In this document: positions 51,330-64,000 of the stretch, piece by piece
How the letters are laid out: each line of letters opens with the position of its first letter
Numbering within the stretch: the first letter of the stretch is position 1
Origin: Roseofilum acuticapitatum BLCC-M154
Lineage (GTDB): Bacteria > Cyanobacteriota > Cyanobacteriia > Cyanobacteriales > Desertifilaceae
Assembly (NCBI RefSeq): GCF_030068475.1
Contig: NZ_JAQOSP010000087.1
Span: 1-64,000, forward strand
Reading direction: 5' to 3'
DNA length: 64,000 bases
Translations under genes and position numbers: made by a program
The notes under the pieces: generated by a model
The model's input: the letters and a program-made list of their open reading frames with translations, nothing else
What the model was told of the DNA's origin: nothing
The model's database searches: none

Positions 51330-51581
51330 ATGCCTACATCCAGTTTAGCGGGCACAAACAGTGGTGTATCGTCCAATCGTCTGTTTCAGTTTGAGGTGGT
51401 TGGTCTTAACCCCAGCAGCATGGCGAATATGAATTGCTCGATTCGTCGCAGTGGTAGTGTCTTGGTTACTGTGCCTTATAACCGCATGAATCAGGAAATG
51501 AAGCGTATTGCTCGTCTAGGTGGCACAATTACTAACATTGTGCCCGTGAATTTTGCTGCGCCCTCTCAGGACGAAGCCTAA
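51330..51581 (+). CDS. CpcD-like linker protein, close paralogue of the PetH N-terminus
   Basis: An 83-residue CpcD-domain protein: [40 protein letters not shown] and IARLGGTITNIVPVN. CpcD caps the ends of phycocyanin rods. This one is much closer to the N-terminal domain of the next gene (petH) than expected for an ordinary CpcD: it shares [31 protein letters not shown] and RMNQE. It probably arose by duplication of the PetH linker domain. AGGAG lies before the ATG. It is not next to a cpc operon. Confidence 0.88.
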   Translation: MPTSSLAGTNSGVSSNRLFQFEVVGLNPSSMANMNCSIRRSGSVLVTVPYNRMNQEMKRIARLGGTITNIVPVNFAAPSQDEA

Positions 51582-52995: not shown

Positions 52996-53027
52996 AGGGG
53001 AGTTCTCTAGGGGACTCCCCTATTTAT
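52996..53027 (+). terminator. Hairpin terminator after petH
   Basis: AGGGGAGT at 52996-53003 pairs with ACTCCCCT at 53014-53021, followed by a T-rich tail (ATTTATTTC). It lies 34 bp past the petH stop. The rest of the gap to 53273 has a short AATTAAA repeat and the leader of the DGR target gene. Confidence 0.8.
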
Positions 53028-53273
53028 TTCAATTAAAAATTAAAAATTTTCATGTCGGCGACAGTCGAAAAAATTAAAATTTTTCCCAAGCTCTATACCT
53101 TACAGTGTAAGCATTTGACGGGAATTTGGGCAAAATGAGTCACCCCACCTTTCCCAAGGAACTAAGATCGGGGTATACAGCATTTTGCGCTGTAATGAGG
53201 TGCGCCCATGTGGAGAGACACGCTTCACATTATTATTAACGCACCCCTACACAATCTTAAATGGAGGACAATT

Positions 53274-55961
53274 ATGATGGGATTAATTGGCTTTGTTAGT
53301 GCAGCCGTTCACACGGTGACTAAAGCCGCACAATCCATAGTTCCTGGGATCATGGCTTGGAATCAAACCCGGATCATGAATAATCAGCAAAAAAATTTGC
53401 AACTGGTTGAAAAACGGGATAGTAAAAGCCAAGAAATAGCCTTAAAACGGATGGAATTTGATGCCAAAATGGAGATGGCACGACAAGCGGCGCGGGCGAA
53501 AGAACGAGAAGAAGACCGGGAATTTAGCCTCGCTCTGGAAACCATGCGGGCGGAAAGTTTGCTGAAAACGGAGCAAATGCGGCAGGCATTTCAAGCCCTG
53601 GAAGCGGAAAAACAGCGCCAGTTTACGGAAGCAATTGAGAAATTTAAAGCTGAAGTACAAATTAGCATTAATCAAGATAATCTTGCCTTTGCCCGGTGGA
53701 AGGAAGAAACGGGGCGGGAATTTGCCCTAGAGATGAAATTACTCGATTTGCAAATTAACCGGATGTTAGCAAAAGAGACGCGAGAAGATGTGCGTCGAGA
53801 CCGGAATAATCCGATTTATGCCGTTACTGAAGATATTCTCAATATTATTATGAGTCAAGACCGTCCACCCCTTTCGGTCTTTATCTCGCCGCCTGTGTTA
53901 AAATTCGACCCTTCGCCGAAAGGGGGAACTGACCCCCAATTTCCGATGATGGAATCTACTCTGAAAGCGGCTTTAAGGCAGTTGTTTAAGCAATATAACT
54001 TGAACCAGCGTCCCATTCTACTTCATGCGGGGGAGTGGATTACGAAAGCTCGCAGTGGAGAAGCGGCGGCGCGAGATTTGTTTCGGGATTTGAAAACGGC
54101 TCCAGTTGCGATTCTGGAAACGGAAATTGAAGAGTCTTTTCTGAATATCAATGTGGGATTTTGGCATACAGATTTTCCGGATATTCGGTTTGATAGTGTG
54201 GCTAGAAAGCTGCGTTGGCGCGATGGACTGGATGAGATTCGTCAGGCGCAGGGACAAGTCTTTGAAATGCAGGGGAAATCTTTGGATCAAGCGACTCCCT
54301 ATGATTTGGAAAAGCTCAATCGCAGGAGTCGAGAGGAGTTGACTCATTATCTGGAGGTGTTGCACTGCGTCCACGCGGGGATGATTGCGGATGAGTATTT
54401 TCTGCTCTATGCCCAACCGCAGCAGATTCCCCTATTGCCTCGGTTGCTTCCTGGGTTGTTTGCGGAGGGAGAATTGCCTCCACAGGTGCAACTGGAGTTG
54501 ATACATAAGGTAATTGATTACTGCGATGCTTTGTTTAATGCCCTGGAACAGATGGACTCTCTGGTGGTGGCTCAGTTGCGTTTAGACTGGGCAGAAACTC
54601 TGGGTGCTGTTTCGGAGCGCTACGGGTTTGAGGGACAGATTGGTGGGGCTATCCGAGCATGGCTGAAACAACGGGGAACGGTTGCTCAGGGGGGAAATCT
54701 GGAGGAGTTGACGAGGGAAGTTGCCCGCTACCTGCTGCCAGAGGATGCGCCTTTTGTAGCTCAACTGAATGGCTGTCTGGAAGTGTTGGGCGTTTCTGGA
54801 GGATTGAATATTGCCCAAGCCTGTTATCAACGGGGTTTGGAGCATCTGGGAGGGAAACGCTGGCAGTTGGCGGTGACTGATTTTAGCCATGCCCTGAGTT
54901 TGTCGCCCCATGTCATTGCCTATTATCAGCGCGGTTTAGCCTATCAGGGGTTGGGAGAACTTCAGAAGGCAATTACGGATTTGGATAAGGCGGTGAAATT
55001 GCAACCGAATCACGCTAAGTTTCATGAGGCGCGGGGGGATGTTTATCGGCAGTTGGAGGATGTGGAGACAGCCCTGGCGAATTATGCGGAAGCGATAGAG
55101 TTGGGTTCTGAGAGTGCGGTGCGGAAGCATGAGGAGTTGCAGCGCTGGTGGACGGATGAGCGCCGGAAGGCGAAGGAGGCAGAGGAAGCTAGGAAACGGG
55201 CAAAAGCGGAGCAAAGGAGACGGGAGGAGGAGCGACGGAAGGCGCTGAGTATTCCAATTCCGGGGAGCGAGCTGACGTTGGAGTTGGTGTATGTGGAGGG
55301 GGGGACTTTCCAGATGGGAAGTACGAAATACAATAATGAAAAGCCGGTTCACGCGGTGACAGTGCCAGAGTTTCGCATGGGTAAGTATCCCATCACTCAA
55401 ACTCAGTATGAGGCGGTGATGGGGACTAATCCATCTGATTTTAAGGGGGAAAATCGTCCTGTGGAGTGTGTGAGTTGGCATGATGCTCAGGAGTTTTGTC
55501 AGAAGCTCTCAGAACTGATTGAGCAACCGGTGCGGCTGCCGAGCGAGGCTGAATGGGAGTTTGCGGCGCGTGGGGGCAACCGGAGCCAGGGTTATGAGTA
55601 TGCGGGCAGTAATAACCTGGATGAGGTGGCTTGGCATTATGGTAATTCTGGCAGCCAAACCCATGATGTGGGGGATAAAAAGAAAAAGGCGAATGAGTTG
55701 GGGATTTGTGATATGAGTGGCAATGTTTGGGAGTGGTGCGCGGATGAGTGGCATGGCAACTATACAAACGCACCTAACGATGGAAGTATATGGTCAAATA
55801 GTGATGAAAGAAATAGCAATAAAAATCGGCTGCTTCGTGGGGGTTCTTGGGGCTACCATTCTGCTTATTGTCGCTCTCGGTCTCGCACCTCGAATGCGGC
55901 GGACAATAGGTACAGGGTCTACGGTTTTCGCGTGGTGTGTCCCTTGGCGATGACGACCTAG
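53274..55961 (+). CDS. DGR target protein: coiled coil, unknown domain, TPR and FGE/C-type-lectin-like variable domain
   Basis: An 895-residue protein whose last domain is diversified by the downstream retroelement. Order: a short N-terminal hydrophobic stretch; a long charged coiled coil about 25-190 (ERDSKSQEIALKRMEFDAK and onward); an uncharacterised domain about 190-480; TPR repeats about 505-625 (QRGLEHLGGKRWQLAVTDFS); a basic helical linker; and an FGE-sulfatase-type domain about 660-895 (YVEGGTFQMGSTKYNNEKPV, MSGNVWEWCAD, LLRGGSWGYHS). This is the usual C-type-lectin-fold DGR acceptor. The variable repeat covers residues 852-893. ATG 53274 has a strong GGAGG; the frame's earlier ATG at 53208 lacks one. 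The location suggests an intracellular or membrane-linked ligand-binding receptor or scaffold. Confidence 0.92.
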   Translation: MMGLIGFVSAAVHTVTKAAQSIVPGIMAWNQTRIMNNQQKNLQLVEKRDSKSQEIALKRMEFDAKMEMARQAARAKEREEDREFSLALETMRAESLLKTEQMRQAFQALEAEKQRQFTEAIEKFKAEVQISINQDNLAFARWKEETGREFALEMKLLDLQINRMLAKETREDVRRDRNNPIYAVTEDILNIIMSQDRPPLSVFISPPVLKFDPSPKGGTDPQFPMMESTLKAALRQLFKQYNLNQRPILLHAGEWITKARSGEAAARDLFRDLKTAPVAILETEIEESFLNINVGFWHTDFPDIRFDSVARKLRWRDGLDEIRQAQGQVFEMQGKSLDQATPYDLEKLNRRSREELTHYLEVLHCVHAGMIADEYFLLYAQPQQIPLLPRLLPGLFAEGELPPQVQLELIHKVIDYCDALFNALEQMDSLVVAQLRLDWAETLGAVSERYGFEGQIGGAIRAWLKQRGTVAQGGNLEELTREVARYLLPEDAPFVAQLNGCLEVLGVSGGLNIAQACYQRGLEHLGGKRWQLAVTDFSHALSLSPHVIAYYQRGLAYQGLGELQKAITDLDKAVKLQPNHAKFHEARGDVYRQLEDVETALANYAEAIELGSESAVRKHEELQRWWTDERRKAKEAEEARKRAKAEQRRREEERRKALSIPIPGSELTLELVYVEGGTFQMGSTKYNNEKPVHAVTVPEFRMGKYPITQTQYEAVMGTNPSDFKGENRPVECVSWHDAQEFCQKLSELIEQPVRLPSEAEWEFAARGGNRSQGYEYAGSNNLDEVAWHYGNSGSQTHDVGDKKKKANELGICDMSGNVWEWCADEWHGNYTNAPNDGSIWSNSDERNSNKNRLLRGGSWGYHSAYCRSRSRTSNAADNRYRVYGFRVVCPLAMTT
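55827..55951 (+). repeat. DGR variable repeat (VR)
   Basis: 125 bp at the 3' end of the target gene, aligned without gaps to the template repeat at 57480-57604. I count 14 mismatches; 11 are at template adenines (A to G three times, A to T four times, A to C four times) and 3 are not (C to G, G to C, T to C). The last 31 bases (from GGTTTTCGCGTGG) are identical, as expected for the initiation-of-mutagenic-homing region. Encoded residues vary between the invariant LLRGG, W, CRS, SNAADNR and [10 protein letters not shown]. Confidence 0.95.
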
Positions 55962-56014
55962 CCCTTTTCTCTTTATTCCTTTTTTCCTTTACCCTTCTTT
56001 ACTTTTTTCTTTTC

Positions 56015-56042
56015 TTCCGCCGAAGGCGGAAATTTTTTTTTT
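56015..56042 (+). terminator. Hairpin with T-run after the DGR target gene
   Basis: TTCCGCC (56015-56021), loop GAA, GGCGGAA (56025-56031), followed by ten T residues. It acts as an intrinsic terminator and, lying 64 bp downstream of VR, could also serve as the stem-loop often found beside the homing region of DGRs. It would limit read-through from the target gene into avd and the RT. Confidence 0.8.
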
Positions 56043-56055
56043 CAAAAATCACCCT

Positions 56056-56406
56056 ATGAACGAACTGTCGATTATCCAGAAAACCTACGATCTGATTAAA
56101 TGGTATGTACCCATTCTCAATCGCCTGCCCCGCACTCACAAGTTTCTCCTCGGAGACCGCATGATTGCAGGACTGTACGATTTACTGGAGACCCTAATTA
56201 TAGCACAATATGAATCGGAGAAACTAAAACTTCTCATTCCCCTAAACAGTAGGCTGCAAATTTTGCGCTATCAAACCCGTCTGCTGCGAGATTTTGACTT
56301 AATTTCGGTTGAGCGCTATGAGTATGTGGGAGGGCTGATGAATGACATTGGCAAAGAATTGGGGGGTTGGATTAAACAACAGCAACGACGAGAGAAAGAT
56401 TCATGA
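56056..56406 (+). CDS. avd: DGR accessory variability determinant (Avd-like)
   Basis: A 116-residue, basic, all-helical protein ([80 protein letters not shown]), fitting the four-helix-bundle Avd family that binds the reverse transcriptase and TR RNA in DGRs and is essential for mutagenic cDNA synthesis. It ends with ATGA overlapping the RT start by 4 bp. No alternative function is likely in this context. Confidence 0.9.
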
Positions 56407-57461
56407 AACGCCACGGCAATCTTTGGTCAGATATGGTGGAGTTCAGCAACCTCCTGCAAGCGTCCCGACAAGCCCAACGAGGCAAGCGATTTAGGGACTC
56501 GATACTGGAATTCAATTATCACTTAGAAGAGAACCTACAGCAACTGAAACAGGAGTTAGAAAACCACACCTACCAACCAGGAGAGTACAATACCTTTTAC
56601 ATCATGGAACCGAAGAAGCGGATGATTTCTGCGGCTCCCTATCGAGACCGGGTGGTTCACCATGCCTTGTGTAATGTTATTGTACCGCTATGCGATCGCA
56701 CGTTTATTTCTGACTCCTATGCCAATCGTTTGGGCTTCGGCACTCACCGCGCCCTGAAGCGCTTTACCCAATTTTCCCGGTCTCATGATTATGTTTTACA
56801 ATGCGATATTCAAAAATACTTTCCTAGTATTGACCACGAAATCCTCAAGTCCTTAATCCGCAAAAAAATCAAATGCCCAGGAACGCTCTGGCTCATCGAT
56901 ACGATTATTGACTATAGCAACGAACAACCCGTTGCCATTCATCATTTTCCAGGAGATGATTTACTTTCTCCTCTGGCACGGAGGCGAGGATTACCAATTG
57001 GCAATTTAACCAGCCAGTTTTTTGCCAATATCTATCTCAATGGATTTGACCATTTCATTAAAGAGGAACTTAGGGCTAAGTCCTATGTTCGCTATGTGGA
57101 TGATTTTGCTCTGTTCTCCAATGACCGCGAATTTCTCAGGGAAGCCAGGGAGAAAATTGAACAATATTTAGTGCAATTGCGGTTAAAAATTCACCCGATT
57201 AAAAGTCAGACGTTTTTGACTCGCCATGGAGCAAACTTTTTAGGGTTTCGTATTTTCCCCGACTGTATTCGGGTTCGCAATGAAAACCTCAGACGAGCAA
57301 GGCGGCGATGGCGAACGTTACAAAATGATTACGCTCAAGGTAAAATAACAATAGACCAAATTCAACAGTCTTGGCAAAGCTGGTGCGCCCATCTGGAGTA
57401 TGGCGACACCTGGCGATTGCGTCAACAGATATTTACTTCGCTGGTCTTTTCCAGGGAGTAA
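56403..57461 (+). CDS. DGR reverse transcriptase
   Basis: A 352-residue reverse transcriptase. Palm motif A is [11 protein letters not shown] with D135; motif C is YVDD with D233 and D234 ([12 protein letters not shown]). [20 protein letters not shown] matches the motif 4 region, with the (I/L)GNLTSQ sequence typical of group II-like and DGR enzymes. [20 protein letters not shown] and [20 protein letters not shown] match the earlier and later palm/thumb regions. It copies TR RNA with high error at adenines and delivers cDNA to VR. It lies between avd and TR. No integrase or maturase domain is fused. Confidence 0.96.
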
Positions 57462-57479
57462 AGAAGGGGTAGGCAACTC

Positions 57480-57604
57480 CGGCTGCTTCGTGGCGGTTGT
57501 TGGAACAACAATTCTGATAATTGTCGCTCTCGGTATCGTAACTCGAATGCGGCGGACAATAGGAACAGGAACTACGGTTTTCGCGTGGTGTGTCCCTTGG
57601 CGAT
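57480..57604 (+). repeat. DGR template repeat (TR)
   Basis: 125 bp starting 18 bp after the RT stop. Read in the target frame it would encode [20 protein letters not shown] and onward, rich in AAC/AAT codons at positions that are variable in VR. I count about 25 adenines, of which 11 differ in VR. The order target-avd-RT-TR differs from the Bordetella phage order (VR-avd-TR-RT). No reading frame of its own. Confidence 0.95.
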
Positions 57605-58122
57605 TACTCTTCGCACTCAGAACTTATTCATGGGAATGAATGGGGCGTATTTCTGAAGAGTCAAGACCTATTCCTGCGATGTTCGCGAGAGCATCCGAAA
57701 ATAAACCGGCGTTGGGCAGCTGAGTAGGTGATGTTCGCGAGCATGAGTCGAAAGGTTGTCCAATTCCACTTTATTGGTGATTTCCCGGTGGGGTGGGGGC
57801 GGGTTTAGGGAATTGATGGGTGAGTGTTCTAGATTTGGGTATAACCCGCCCCTACGGGGATCTGGGTGGTTTTCAATTTTTAATTTTTAATTTTTAATTT
57901 TTAATTTTTAATTTTTAATTGAGAAGGTGGGGTGGGGGCTGGTTTTGGGGATTGATTTGTCGCCCCTACGGGGAATGGTTGATGGGTTTTGTCCATTGGG
58001 TTGAAGGACGTGCCGGTGCTGAGAGTATTAGGCTATACAATTCTGGACAGGGAGGGAAGGCGATCGCCGAAAACCCAACTGCTGTGTTACGTTAGGACAG
58101 TAATATTCTCATCAACGAACAT
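57605..58122. other. Repeat-rich stretch between the DGR and the VapBC module
   Basis: 518 bp without a gene. It holds GATGTTCGCGAG twice (about 57675 and 57729), the 22-base dispersed sequence at 57831-57852 also found at 12986, a CCCCTACGGGG palindrome twice (near 57850 and 57970), and a long TTTTTAA heptamer array (57871-57920). Nothing suggests a further TR or VR. Confidence 0.7.
57792..57923. repeat. Repeat unit left of the VapBC module
   Basis: GTGGGGGCGGGTTT..TTGATGGG followed at 57864-57923 by GGGTGGTTTTCAATTTTTAA, a TTTTTAA array and TTGAG. The same string, with a shorter array, lies at 58757-58820 on the other side of the module. Confidence 0.75.
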
Positions 58123-58341
58123 ATGGCGTGCAAAATACTGACAGCAACGTATAACAACGGTAGCCTAATTCTCGATCGCCATCTGGAATCGATCATGGAA
58201 GGCAAGACGTTTAAAATCGTACTTATCGACATGGATGAAGGCGATCGTAAAAAGCAGCAGTTTTTGCAATTAGTAGACAAACATTCTTTTTCATTGTCTC
58301 CAGATTATCAGTTCAATCGAGATGAACTCCATGAGCGGTAA
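58123..58341 (+). CDS. VapB-type antitoxin
   Basis: A 72-residue protein: a short N-terminal strand (ILTATYNNGSLILDRHLESI) of the kind seen in DUF104-like antitoxins, then a helical C-terminus ending in FNRDELHER, which would wrap the toxin. It overlaps the following PIN-domain gene by about 20 bp. The context, not the sequence alone, supports the antitoxin call. Confidence 0.75.
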   Translation: MACKILTATYNNGSLILDRHLESIMEGKTFKIVLIDMDEGDRKKQQFLQLVDKHSFSLSPDYQFNRDELHER

Positions 58342-58744
58342 AGTCTTTTTAGATACAAATCTTTGGGTCTATCTCTATGCCAAAGAACCAGAAATAAAAT
58401 ATCTCAAAGTACGGCAAATTATTGCCGATGAGTTGGACTCGATAAGTCTCAGCACTCAAACCCTAGGAGAATTGTTCAATGTTTTGACCAGAAAGAAGCT
58501 TGTCGCCGATAATGAAGCTCAAGAAATCATCTTAGAGTTAGTTAGCACTTTCACTATTGCGGAAATAGATACCCTTAAAGTGATTCAAGCGTTAGAGATC
58601 AAATCTCGATACCAATACTCTTATTGGGATAGTTTAATTATTGCTACTGCTTTAACTTTAGATTGTACAATCTTGTACTCTGAAGATTTACATCACGATC
58701 AATTGATTGCACAGAAAATGAGAATTGTCAATCCATTTGCGTAA
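58331..58744 (+). CDS. vapC: PIN-domain toxin (VapC-like)
   Basis: A 137-residue PIN-domain ribonuclease starting at ATG 58331 (MSGKVFLDTNLWVYLY); an ATG at 58322 adds three codons. Acidic active-site residues: D in FLDTN, E in TLGELFNVL, D in YWDSLIIATAL and the late D in SEDLHHDQ. VapC toxins cleave tRNA or other RNA. It overlaps its antitoxin. Flanked by repeat units at 57792-57923 and 58757-58820. Confidence 0.88.
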   Translation: MSGKVFLDTNLWVYLYAKEPEIKYLKVRQIIADELDSISLSTQTLGELFNVLTRKKLVADNEAQEIILELVSTFTIAEIDTLKVIQALEIKSRYQYSYWDSLIIATALTLDCTILYSEDLHHDQLIAQKMRIVNPFA

Positions 58745-58756
58745 AATCAACAGGCA

Positions 58757-58820
58757 GTGGGGGCGGGTTTTGGGGGTTGATGGGTGGTTTTCAATTTTTA
58801 ATTTTTAATTTTTAATTGAG
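58757..58820. repeat. Repeat unit right of the VapBC module
   Basis: Second copy of the unit at 57792-57923: GTGGGGGCGGGTTTT..TTGATGGG, then GGGTGGTTTTCAATTTTTAA and TTGAG. The intervening about 840 bp contain the VapBC pair. Confidence 0.75.
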
Positions 58821-58842
58821 CTAATTTATCTTGCAGATTCGA

Positions 58843-59295
58843 CTACGGGGCAGGGTTGATGGGTTTGGAGGTGAGAATTAAGCGGATTTTGGCATGGATC
58901 AGGTTCAGTTGGGCTAAACCGAGGTCTACGTCGCCTTGAATGACAATACCGGTGTGCAAGAGGCGGTCTAGGAGTTCTAAAATGGAGGGGCGATCGCTCT
59001 TTTCCCCTGGATAATAGCCTTGTTTGGGCAAGAGGGAGCCGATTTCCCCTAAGTCAATGTTTAAGTCGGCTGGATCGATGTCGAAGATTTCACACAGGTT
59101 GATAATCTGTTCTTCGAGACGCTGTAGGCTTTCGGCTGCTCGGTCTAGTTCTTCTTCGCTTAGGCTACCCGCATCCATGCGCCGAATGACTTGAGCTTCC
59201 ATCAGTTGGCGAATGAGTTCGACAACGGTGAGCAGTAAGGGGGCTAGTCCTGCATCAGGAGAGCGATCGGAAGAGGGAACCAGGGAAGAAGTCAT
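58843..59295 (-). CDS. gvpK: Gas vesicle protein GvpK
   Basis: A 150-residue acidic protein matching GvpK: LAPLLLTVVELIRQLMEAQV, RRMDAGSLSEEELDRAAESL, LCEIFDIDPADLNIDLGEIG and LLDRLLHTGIVIQGDVDLGL. GvpK is a conserved accessory protein for gas vesicle formation, which gives buoyancy. No other gvp gene is visible here; the rest of the cluster may lie elsewhere. ATG 59295. Confidence 0.93.
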   Translation of the reverse strand: MTSSLVPSSDRSPDAGLAPLLLTVVELIRQLMEAQVIRRMDAGSLSEEELDRAAESLQRLEEQIINLCEIFDIDPADLNIDLGEIGSLLPKQGYYPGEKSDRPSILELLDRLLHTGIVIQGDVDLGLAQLNLIHAKIRLILTSKPINPAP

Positions 59296-62794: not shown

Positions 62795-63156
62795 GTTTCC
62801 CTCCTACAGATCGGTTTATAAGTTGAGTTGTGTTAAGTTGACTTGGCTATCAATGGGTCTAATATGAGGTTTGGGGAACCTCTCTAATGAGTCTGTATCC
62901 GGTTTCTGGACAAGGAGTGAATCCTGCCAGAGCTGAATGCACACATGATTCTAACTTTAGCTGCACCAACTTGCAATTAATCGTTGTTGGCTTGAGAAGG
63001 CAATCTACACTGATGATTTTGCCTTAATTGTAAATTTTTGTAAAGTTTGCATAAAATGGCCCCTCTAAATCTGAGAACCCTATAGGGGGGATCTCCATAC
63101 TCCCCTGTCATGGACGACAAGCAAAGGTGAGATCGGGTACTCAGGAGGTTAAAGAG
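62795..63156. other. Intergenic region before the CHAT gene
   Basis: 362 bp without a recognisable gene. It contains AGGAGG at 63143-63148, the ribosome-binding site for the next gene, and AACCCTATAGGGGGG, a short palindrome near 63080. Presumably divergent promoters. Confidence 0.6.
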
Positions 63157-64000
63157 GTGGGAAAACTGGTAGTTTTGGAGCTTGAAGGCAGTTTAAGCAC
63201 AGAGGGCTTTCGGGTACGGTTGCAAATTGGAGAGGACGGACAGCGCCCCGATCTGGATATATCCGGATACTTACCCTCAGAACCCGATCTCGCCCAATTA
63301 CTAGAAAGTCATTGGGTAGATAAGTATCGTCCTTTGGGACTGCCTAATCGGGGAATCAAGCCAAAAGGGATTAAATATGATGGAGTTCTGAATCGGATCA
63401 AAGAGTGCAAAGAATCGGGCGATCGCCTGTGCGATCGCCTCAATCAATGGCTCAGTTCTCCCGATTTTCGGGCGATCGACACTCAGATCCGCGAAAGACT
63501 CGATTATCGCGATCGCATCCGCTTCATTGTCCGTACCGACTGCAATGACTTGCACAAACTCCCCTGGCACAATTGGCAACTCCTATCCCGATACACCCAT
63601 GCCGAAATCTCCTTCAGCGATACCAACTTTAGGCGCTCCGATCCCCTCAGCACCACCCCACCCGGAAAAGTCAAAATTCTCGCCATCCTAGGACATAAAG
63701 AAGGCATCGACACCGACAAAGACCAGGAAATCCTCGACTCACTACCCAATGCAGAAGTCACCTTTCTCATCGAACCCAAACAAGCAGACATCAACGCCCA
63801 ACTCTGGGAACAACCCTGGGATATCCTCTTCTTTGCCGGCCACAGCGAAACCGACGGCGACACCGGTAAAATTTACATCAATCCCGACCAATACTTAACC
63901 GTCGATCAAATCTGGTATGGTTTGCGAAAAGCCGTCGCCCAAGGACTAAAACTCGCCATCTTCAACTCCTGTGACGGACTAGGACTCGCCCGCAAACTCG
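63157..64000 (+). CDS. CHAT-domain protease, 3' end beyond the window
   Basis: An open frame without a stop to the window end, so it is partial. From GTG 63157 (VGKLVVLELEGSLSTEGFRV) with AGGAGG eight bases upstream. Residues about 1-160 are an N-terminal domain typical of cyanobacterial CHAT proteins; from about 175 there is a caspase-like CHAT core: PGKVKILAILGHKEG, then the His motif in ILFFAGHSETDGDTGKIYIN and the Cys motif in LAIFNSCDGLGLARKL. CHAT proteases are used in defence and programmed-death pathways, usually with a separate or fused effector. What follows is not seen. Confidence 0.85.
   Translation, partial: MGKLVVLELEGSLSTEGFRVRLQIGEDGQRPDLDISGYLPSEPDLAQLLESHWVDKYRPLGLPNRGIKPKGIKYDGVLNRIKECKESGDRLCDRLNQWLSSPDFRAIDTQIRERLDYRDRIRFIVRTDCNDLHKLPWHNWQLLSRYTHAEISFSDTNFRRSDPLSTTPPGKVKILAILGHKEGIDTDKDQEILDSLPNAEVTFLIEPKQADINAQLWEQPWDILFFAGHSETDGDTGKIYINPDQYLTVDQIWYGLRKAVAQGLKLAIFNSCDGLGLARKL

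Follow-up and report, generated by a model that had tools for sequence, protein, structure and literature searches.

Among the described diversity-generating retroelements (DGRs), those closest to the locus analysed here are the cyanobacterial DGRs of clade 5E, whose reverse transcriptases (RTs) share a mean identity of 67% and a minimum of 55% (PMC7517822), and DGR mutagenesis has been seen in culture in Nostoc punctiforme (PMC12691664). cDNA synthesis in the DGR of the Bordetella phage BPP-1 is primed from an internal adenine (PMC12875486), while a gene layout of MoxR plus vWA is that of DGR-linked ternary conflict systems (PMC7159879, PMC10907252). We analysed a DGR in Roseofilum acuticapitatum BLCC-M154, within the first 64,000 nucleotides of contig NZ_JAQOSP010000087.1 (hereafter the window); this genome is coded G000, and the five Roseofilum congeners that were searched are coded G001 to G005. 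A previous sequence-only reading had proposed a complete DGR with a multidomain target here, and all the parts were found at the place it gave. The DGR is real and of a kind already known in cyanobacteria, with an unusual target history; this copy sits on a fused target gene at a new genome site.

Analysis of the locus indicated that the target, avd, the RT gene and the template region (TR) all lie on the plus strand in this order, with GGAGG (53263-53267) ahead of the target ATG. The variable region (VR) lies within the last 45 codons of the target, in which a FGE-sulfatase domain occupies residues 670-888 of 895 (Pfam). The Avd protein matched its family profile with E=1.2e-38 and 131.6 bits (cutoff 80) and is 23% identical to the BPP-1 Avd. 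The RT is of the DGR type and its catalytic motifs, PIGNLTSQ (of the IGxxxSQ type) and YVDD, are intact. Its best PDB match is 8ub7 (E=2.6e-50), which we take to be the BPP-1 DGR RT. The RT is 33% identical to that of the BPP-1 record, 92% identical to the RT of the nearest named relative, Roseofilum halophilum BLCC-M91, and 61-72% identical to most fetched cyanobacterial DGR RTs, Thiotrichales RTs being equally close by pairwise identity. A second DGR RT in the genome was rejected, the other RT matches (contigs C39, C116 and C6) being just 26-35% identical; of these the C39 copy, inspected by eye, carries QGxxxSP and adjoins a Cas1-like open reading frame (ORF). The gene order had been described as different from that of the Bordetella phage. 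The difference, TR after RT, stands, but not as an unusual trait, since TR follows RT in 38 of 42 relatives with a resolvable TR/VR pair and 31 of the 42 share the exact order, which is thus ordinary and the commonest among relatives.

Ungapped alignment of the 125-bp TR and VR revealed 14 mismatches, 11 of them at TR adenines (hypergeometric P=6e-7), exactly as had been counted by hand; the matched repeats, the YVDD-bearing RT, the Avd-like protein and the TR end at 57604 were confirmed as well. When the assignment was reversed, no mismatch fell on a VR adenine across the 126-bp core. The TR adenines are replaced in the VR by T, C and G four, four and three times, respectively, i.e. without transition bias. 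The base following the repeat is T after the TR (57605) and G after the VR (55952), a difference that holds across the three Roseofilum TRs and is expected of an IMH*/IMH junction (IMH, initiation of mutagenic homing); constant GATGACG at the VR and GATTACT at the TR were found across the genus.

Complete DGRs were also identified in G003 and G001, with 9 of 9 and 13 of 14 TR/VR mismatches at A, respectively. G003 carries in addition a remote VR on its contig C63 (10 of 12 mismatches at A), which ends a FGE gene whose start resembles that of kinase-FGE genes. The concentration at A sites has P values of 6e-7 to 9e-9 in three species, non-A sites being almost unchanged and no reverse bias being present. 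Position 113 of the repeat is T in the TR, the cis VR and the remote VR of G003, but in G000 and G001 both the TR and the cis VR have G there; the G001 TR differs from the window TR at 15 sites, most of them common to the VR of G001 itself. Changes in the TR therefore reach the VRs. Read from sister-species comparison, this transfer in cis and in trans is evidence of homing, and the passage from TR to VR may depend on the RT.

The target protein is built of a coiled coil, an unannotated alpha/beta plus helical module, TPRs and a C-terminal FGE/C-type-lectin (CLec) domain, the best PDB match of the latter being the Treponema variable protein TvpA (2y3c, 1.2e-29). Its multidomain character had been recognized correctly, but it does not make the target stand out, since multidomain CLec targets are the published cyanobacterial norm (PMC7517822, PMC10907252). 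Residues 1-545 carry no Pfam name except for the start of the TPRs; an AlphaFold model (pLDDT 77) gave a long coiled coil (residues 30-174), a small alpha/beta part (180-314) and a helical part. Up to about residue 541 the target is 15-42% identical to Roseofilum DGR targets, and beyond it the value jumps to mostly 75-90%; against proteins of other families the corresponding figures are mostly 40-73% and 40-60%. At the DNA level the high similarity to the G003 and G001 DGR loci begins at position 54,911, with nothing comparable upstream in the gene. Judged from these identities, the target is a chimera in which the TPR-CLec-avd-RT-TR block has been joined at about 54,911 to an N-terminus from a different lineage; a misassembly is a formal possibility. 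Homologues of the first 542 residues occur in 94 of 293 genomes of the order, some matches covering the TPR-near half only. In the 27 members of this N-terminal family that were scanned, FGE forms the C-terminal end of 15 and WD40 repeats are present in 8, as would fit a signalling module on which sensors are swapped. DGR loci fetched by RT similarity (L042-L100) had the module in Roseofilum and Okeania (L075) only.

Each of the five congeners has the sequence left of about 53,026 (the petH side) directly joined to that right of about 58,855, an empty site from which it follows that about 5.8 kb was inserted in this genome. A 108-bp segment upstream of the target has its sole other strong full-length copy in the genome upstream of a gene on contig C76, where the neighbours are those of the G003 DGR target, the FGE part is broken and no RT is present. 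This seems, from its sequence context, to be the old DGR locus of the genome. The simplest history would be a relocation or copying of the block out of the old locus, with fusion to a different N-terminus; the direction and the mechanism of this are hypothetical. Short dispersed repeats at 57787-57860 and 53028-53082 recur many times in the genome, quite often around the C76 locus, and are possible recombination sites. The ORF and PIN-domain gene that the island carries besides the DGR are a probable VapBC-like pair.

Conservation extends over about 120 bases 3' of the TR in 38 loci, which belong to cyanobacteria and Gammaproteobacteria. Of the 27 pairs in the consensus fold, 21 show two-sided changes; 97.0% of cells pair, compared with 82.0% (sd 0.7) after shuffling and 36-50% after sliding, and 157 two-sided changes were observed against 38 in the control. 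Three helices were defined: P1 (57606-57612/57655-57661), in which the bases right after the TR pair with the spacer, a GGGA-loop hairpin (57623-57631/57636-57644) and a further hairpin (57678-57684/57689-57695). Folding of the single sequence was not significant (z=-0.33), so the case for a structured RNA rests on covariation. The covariance model (R1) gave 112.6 bits on the window, which is a training sequence, and it also finds DGR loci outside the training set (e.g. L065 and L094), with matches in 36 of 386 cyanobacterial genomes. Most of the 20 R1 loci inspected lie beside an RT. Orphan copies that follow a FGE gene and have no RT nearby in the sequence examined (L165:6099-6212, L167:5881-5994, L184, L193, L196 and L198) may be what VR x TR recombination left behind when it removed avd-RT. 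Rfam 15 holds no family for this RNA and gave a chance hit only; R1 did not match BPP-1, so the likeness to the BPP-1 spacer RNA is one of layout. By analogy with that spacer, the invariant A57664 would be the priming adenine; its place matches that of A56, presumably the BPP-1 priming adenine, when the spacers are compared by eye.

A second conserved element follows the VR. Across 43 loci the stretch 10-70 bases after the VR is 71.6% pyrimidine on the coding strand, compared with 42.7% after the TR (P=6e-16 versus VR) and 47.5% after other genes, and the tract has a periodicity of 7-8 nt (lag 8, z=14). It was also identified in planctomycete, nitrospiral and other loci, and it is weak or absent in Roseofilum FGE genes without a TR match. 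We propose that the homing site is recognized or resolved through it; common descent of the gene ends could account for part of the signal. The hairpin next to it is perfect at two sister DGRs and has one mismatch at the remote VR of a sister. Because hairpins follow the VR in just 23 of 46 loci, against 17% of control gene ends, this element is weaker than the tract; it may be a stem-loop beside the IMH or a terminator. No published description of the pyrimidine tract or of a covarying TR RNA (trRNA) was found in the open literature, Handa et al. 2025 (PMC11995886) lying outside the scope of that search. These two elements, the chimeric target and the lineage-specific island had gone unrecognized in the sequence-only reading, whose interpretation is otherwise supported.

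A search of the genome for further VRs, which that reading had recommended, revealed one remote VR, on contig C91 (61579-61689), with 15 of 26 mismatches at A (P=2.9e-6). It ends a gene with vWA (weak match, E=8e-4) and FGE/CLec domains beside a MoxR-like ATPase gene (L011:3323-7736). Since its IMH end has diverged and the pyrimidine tract is absent, it may be a retired DGR target. No VMAP was identified at this locus, and the pairing of MoxR with vWA-FGE is present on C91 only; around the window target the ternary layout was not found, the target lacking vWA and having neither MoxR nor VMAP beside it. The FGE paralogues on C3 and C76 were rejected as current targets for want of a convincing TR match. 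That on C71, with an alignment of just 55 bp and 8 of 20 mismatches at A (P=0.003), is at best an old target.

Table 1. Coordinates of the DGR, its cis elements and the surrounding island in the window.
Feature	Position	Strand	Evidence
Target gene (variable protein, 895 aa)	53274-55961	+	ATG 53274, stop 55961; Pfam, AlphaFold model
N-terminal module, other lineage	53274-54910	+	Binned identities
TPR-CLec-VR-avd-RT-TR block, sharp 5' breakpoint	54911-57773	+	88-90% DNA identity to sister DGR loci
VR	55827-55951	+	Ungapped alignment to TR
Pyrimidine tract, 7-8-nt rhythm	55962-56014	+	3' of stop codon; clade-wide after VRs, not TRs
Hairpin TTCCGCC-GAA-GGCGGAA	56015-56031	+	Sequence comparison with sisters
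avd, accessory variability determinant	56056-56406	+	NCBIfam DivGenRetAVD NF033474
DGR reverse transcriptase	56403-57461	+	Overlap with avd 4 bp; profile match, PDB match 8ub7
TR	57480-57604	+	Ungapped alignment to VR
Conserved structured RNA 3' of TR	57606-57695	+	Covariation in 38 loci
Invariant A 3' of P1, proposed priming adenine	57664	+	Invariant column; BPP-1 spacer analogy
Lineage-specific island with DGR and PIN toxin-antitoxin pair	53026-58854		blastn of flanks against G001-G005, junction alignments
Upstream segment, 108 bp	53069-53176	+	Other copy C76:16871-16978, 90%
72-aa ORF and PIN-domain toxin, island cargo	58123-58744	+	PIN E=7.8e-17

Outside the island, a stand-alone 83-aa ORF (51330-51581) is a duplicate of the N-terminal domain encoded by the petH-like gene next to it (83% over 238 nt), and an ORF at 63127-63999, continuing past the window end, has a very weak CHAT-domain match.

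We consider it very likely that the locus is a bona fide DGR, presumably of the cyanobacterial branch (clade 5/5E in the published naming), with a target that is likely a sensor. The Avd-RT complex would copy the TR RNA and insert random bases opposite adenines, with adenine 57664, which is conserved and adjoins the helix that would hold the TR 3' end, as the probable starting point of priming. The mutated cDNA would then replace the VR at the target 3' end, the homing site being marked by the IMH sequence, presumably by the pyrimidine tract and possibly by the hairpin. The rewritten residues would be mostly Asn-codon positions of the CLec ligand-binding face, and the target, a coiled-coil/TPR protein, would most likely act as a sensor, conceivably in immunity, whose N-terminal module signals on binding. 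As far as its sequence tells, the DGR is probably functional, and we infer that it is active in this strain at present.

Several observations weigh against this account. At the three non-A mismatches (TR positions 57494, 57499 and 57539) the VR has the base of both sister-species TRs and the TR of the strain itself deviates, so it is the TR that changed, with no rewriting of the VR at these sites afterwards; this may imply low or recently absent activity, with the caveat that the G002 VR also has T at the third site. The VR evidence comes from the assembled sequences of single genomes. Foldseek with the N-terminal model gave no confident structural match (best E=0.016), and PADLOC gave no defence-family match for the target. 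The same three sites are what would be expected if the cassette were intact and silent in this strain, its A-site differences being old and no homing having followed the changes that the TR acquired. Loss appears to be common in the genus, since two congeners keep targets without RT, avd and TR (G002, with 15 of 18 VR mismatches at A and no RT found, and likewise G005). A silent cassette is nevertheless rather unlikely in our view: RT and Avd are full length with intact catalytic motifs, the 3' RNA is well conserved, and cyanobacterial VRs mutate slowly even if active (PMC12691664).

A real DGR might also diversify a regulator, a kinase-like signalling protein or a surface-binding protein and not an immune sensor. 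The tuning of signalling has been argued for cyanobacteria (PMC7517822), and paralogues in this genome fuse the same CLec domain to Ser/Thr kinases; however, the remote VR lies in a locus of the MoxR/vWA ternary conflict type and the clade is associated with conflict systems (PMC10907252, PMC7159879), and we regard the regulator role as less likely than not. The genome has many paralogous FGE genes, and VR and TR could in principle be a mere duplicated gene fragment under ordinary mutational drift. The concentration at A sites in three species, the nearly unchanged non-A sites and the missing reverse bias refute this, RT and Avd are moreover adjacent, and we give it practically no credence. 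Returning to the bona fide DGR, a broader and tentative reading, to which we assign slightly less than an even chance, is that clade-wide cis elements make cellular DGRs portable. The RNA fold would set the priming adenine, tract and hairpin would mark gene ends, and the 2.9-kb TPR-CLec-avd-RT-TR block would therefore be movable and graftable onto new N-terminal modules, targets that lose the tract, such as that on C91, being retired.

The results add Roseofilum to the hosts of a known group of cellular mutagenic retroelements. Six closely related genomes of the genus document TR changes carried to VRs in cis and in trans, targets that were kept where the retroelement was lost, a remote target that is probably retired, and a relocation accompanied by a change of the target's N-terminus. 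The covarying RNA and the pyrimidine tract are concrete cis sequences bearing on how non-phage DGRs choose their targets, and it is these neighbours, rather than the DGR, that most merit further study.

The DGR resembles the cyanobacterial DGRs of clade 5E (Vallota-Eastman 2020, PMC7517822; Dore 2024, PMC10907252) in RT identity (61-72%), remote targets, TR after RT and a C-terminal CLec target with N-terminal domains, while it differs from them in its unannotated coiled-coil/alpha-beta/helical N-terminus and in that a chimeric origin and an empty site are documented. With the BPP-1 DGR it shares Avd, an RT (33% identity), A-mutagenesis, IMH/IMH* and a structured spacer 3' of the TR; here, however, TR follows RT, the target is a host gene and not a phage tail gene, the spacer RNA belongs to a model without a match in BPP-1, and a pyrimidine tract lies between VR and hairpin. 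The C91 remote VR, ending a vWA-FGE gene by a MoxR-type ATPase, is akin to the MoxR-vWA (VMAP) ternary systems (PMC7159879), whereas the window target has neither vWA nor a MoxR or VMAP neighbour. TvpA of Treponema denticola, like the target a FGE-type C-type-lectin DGR protein and its best solved CLec relative, belongs to another DGR, while the CLec domain of Roseofilum is fused to a coiled coil and TPRs.

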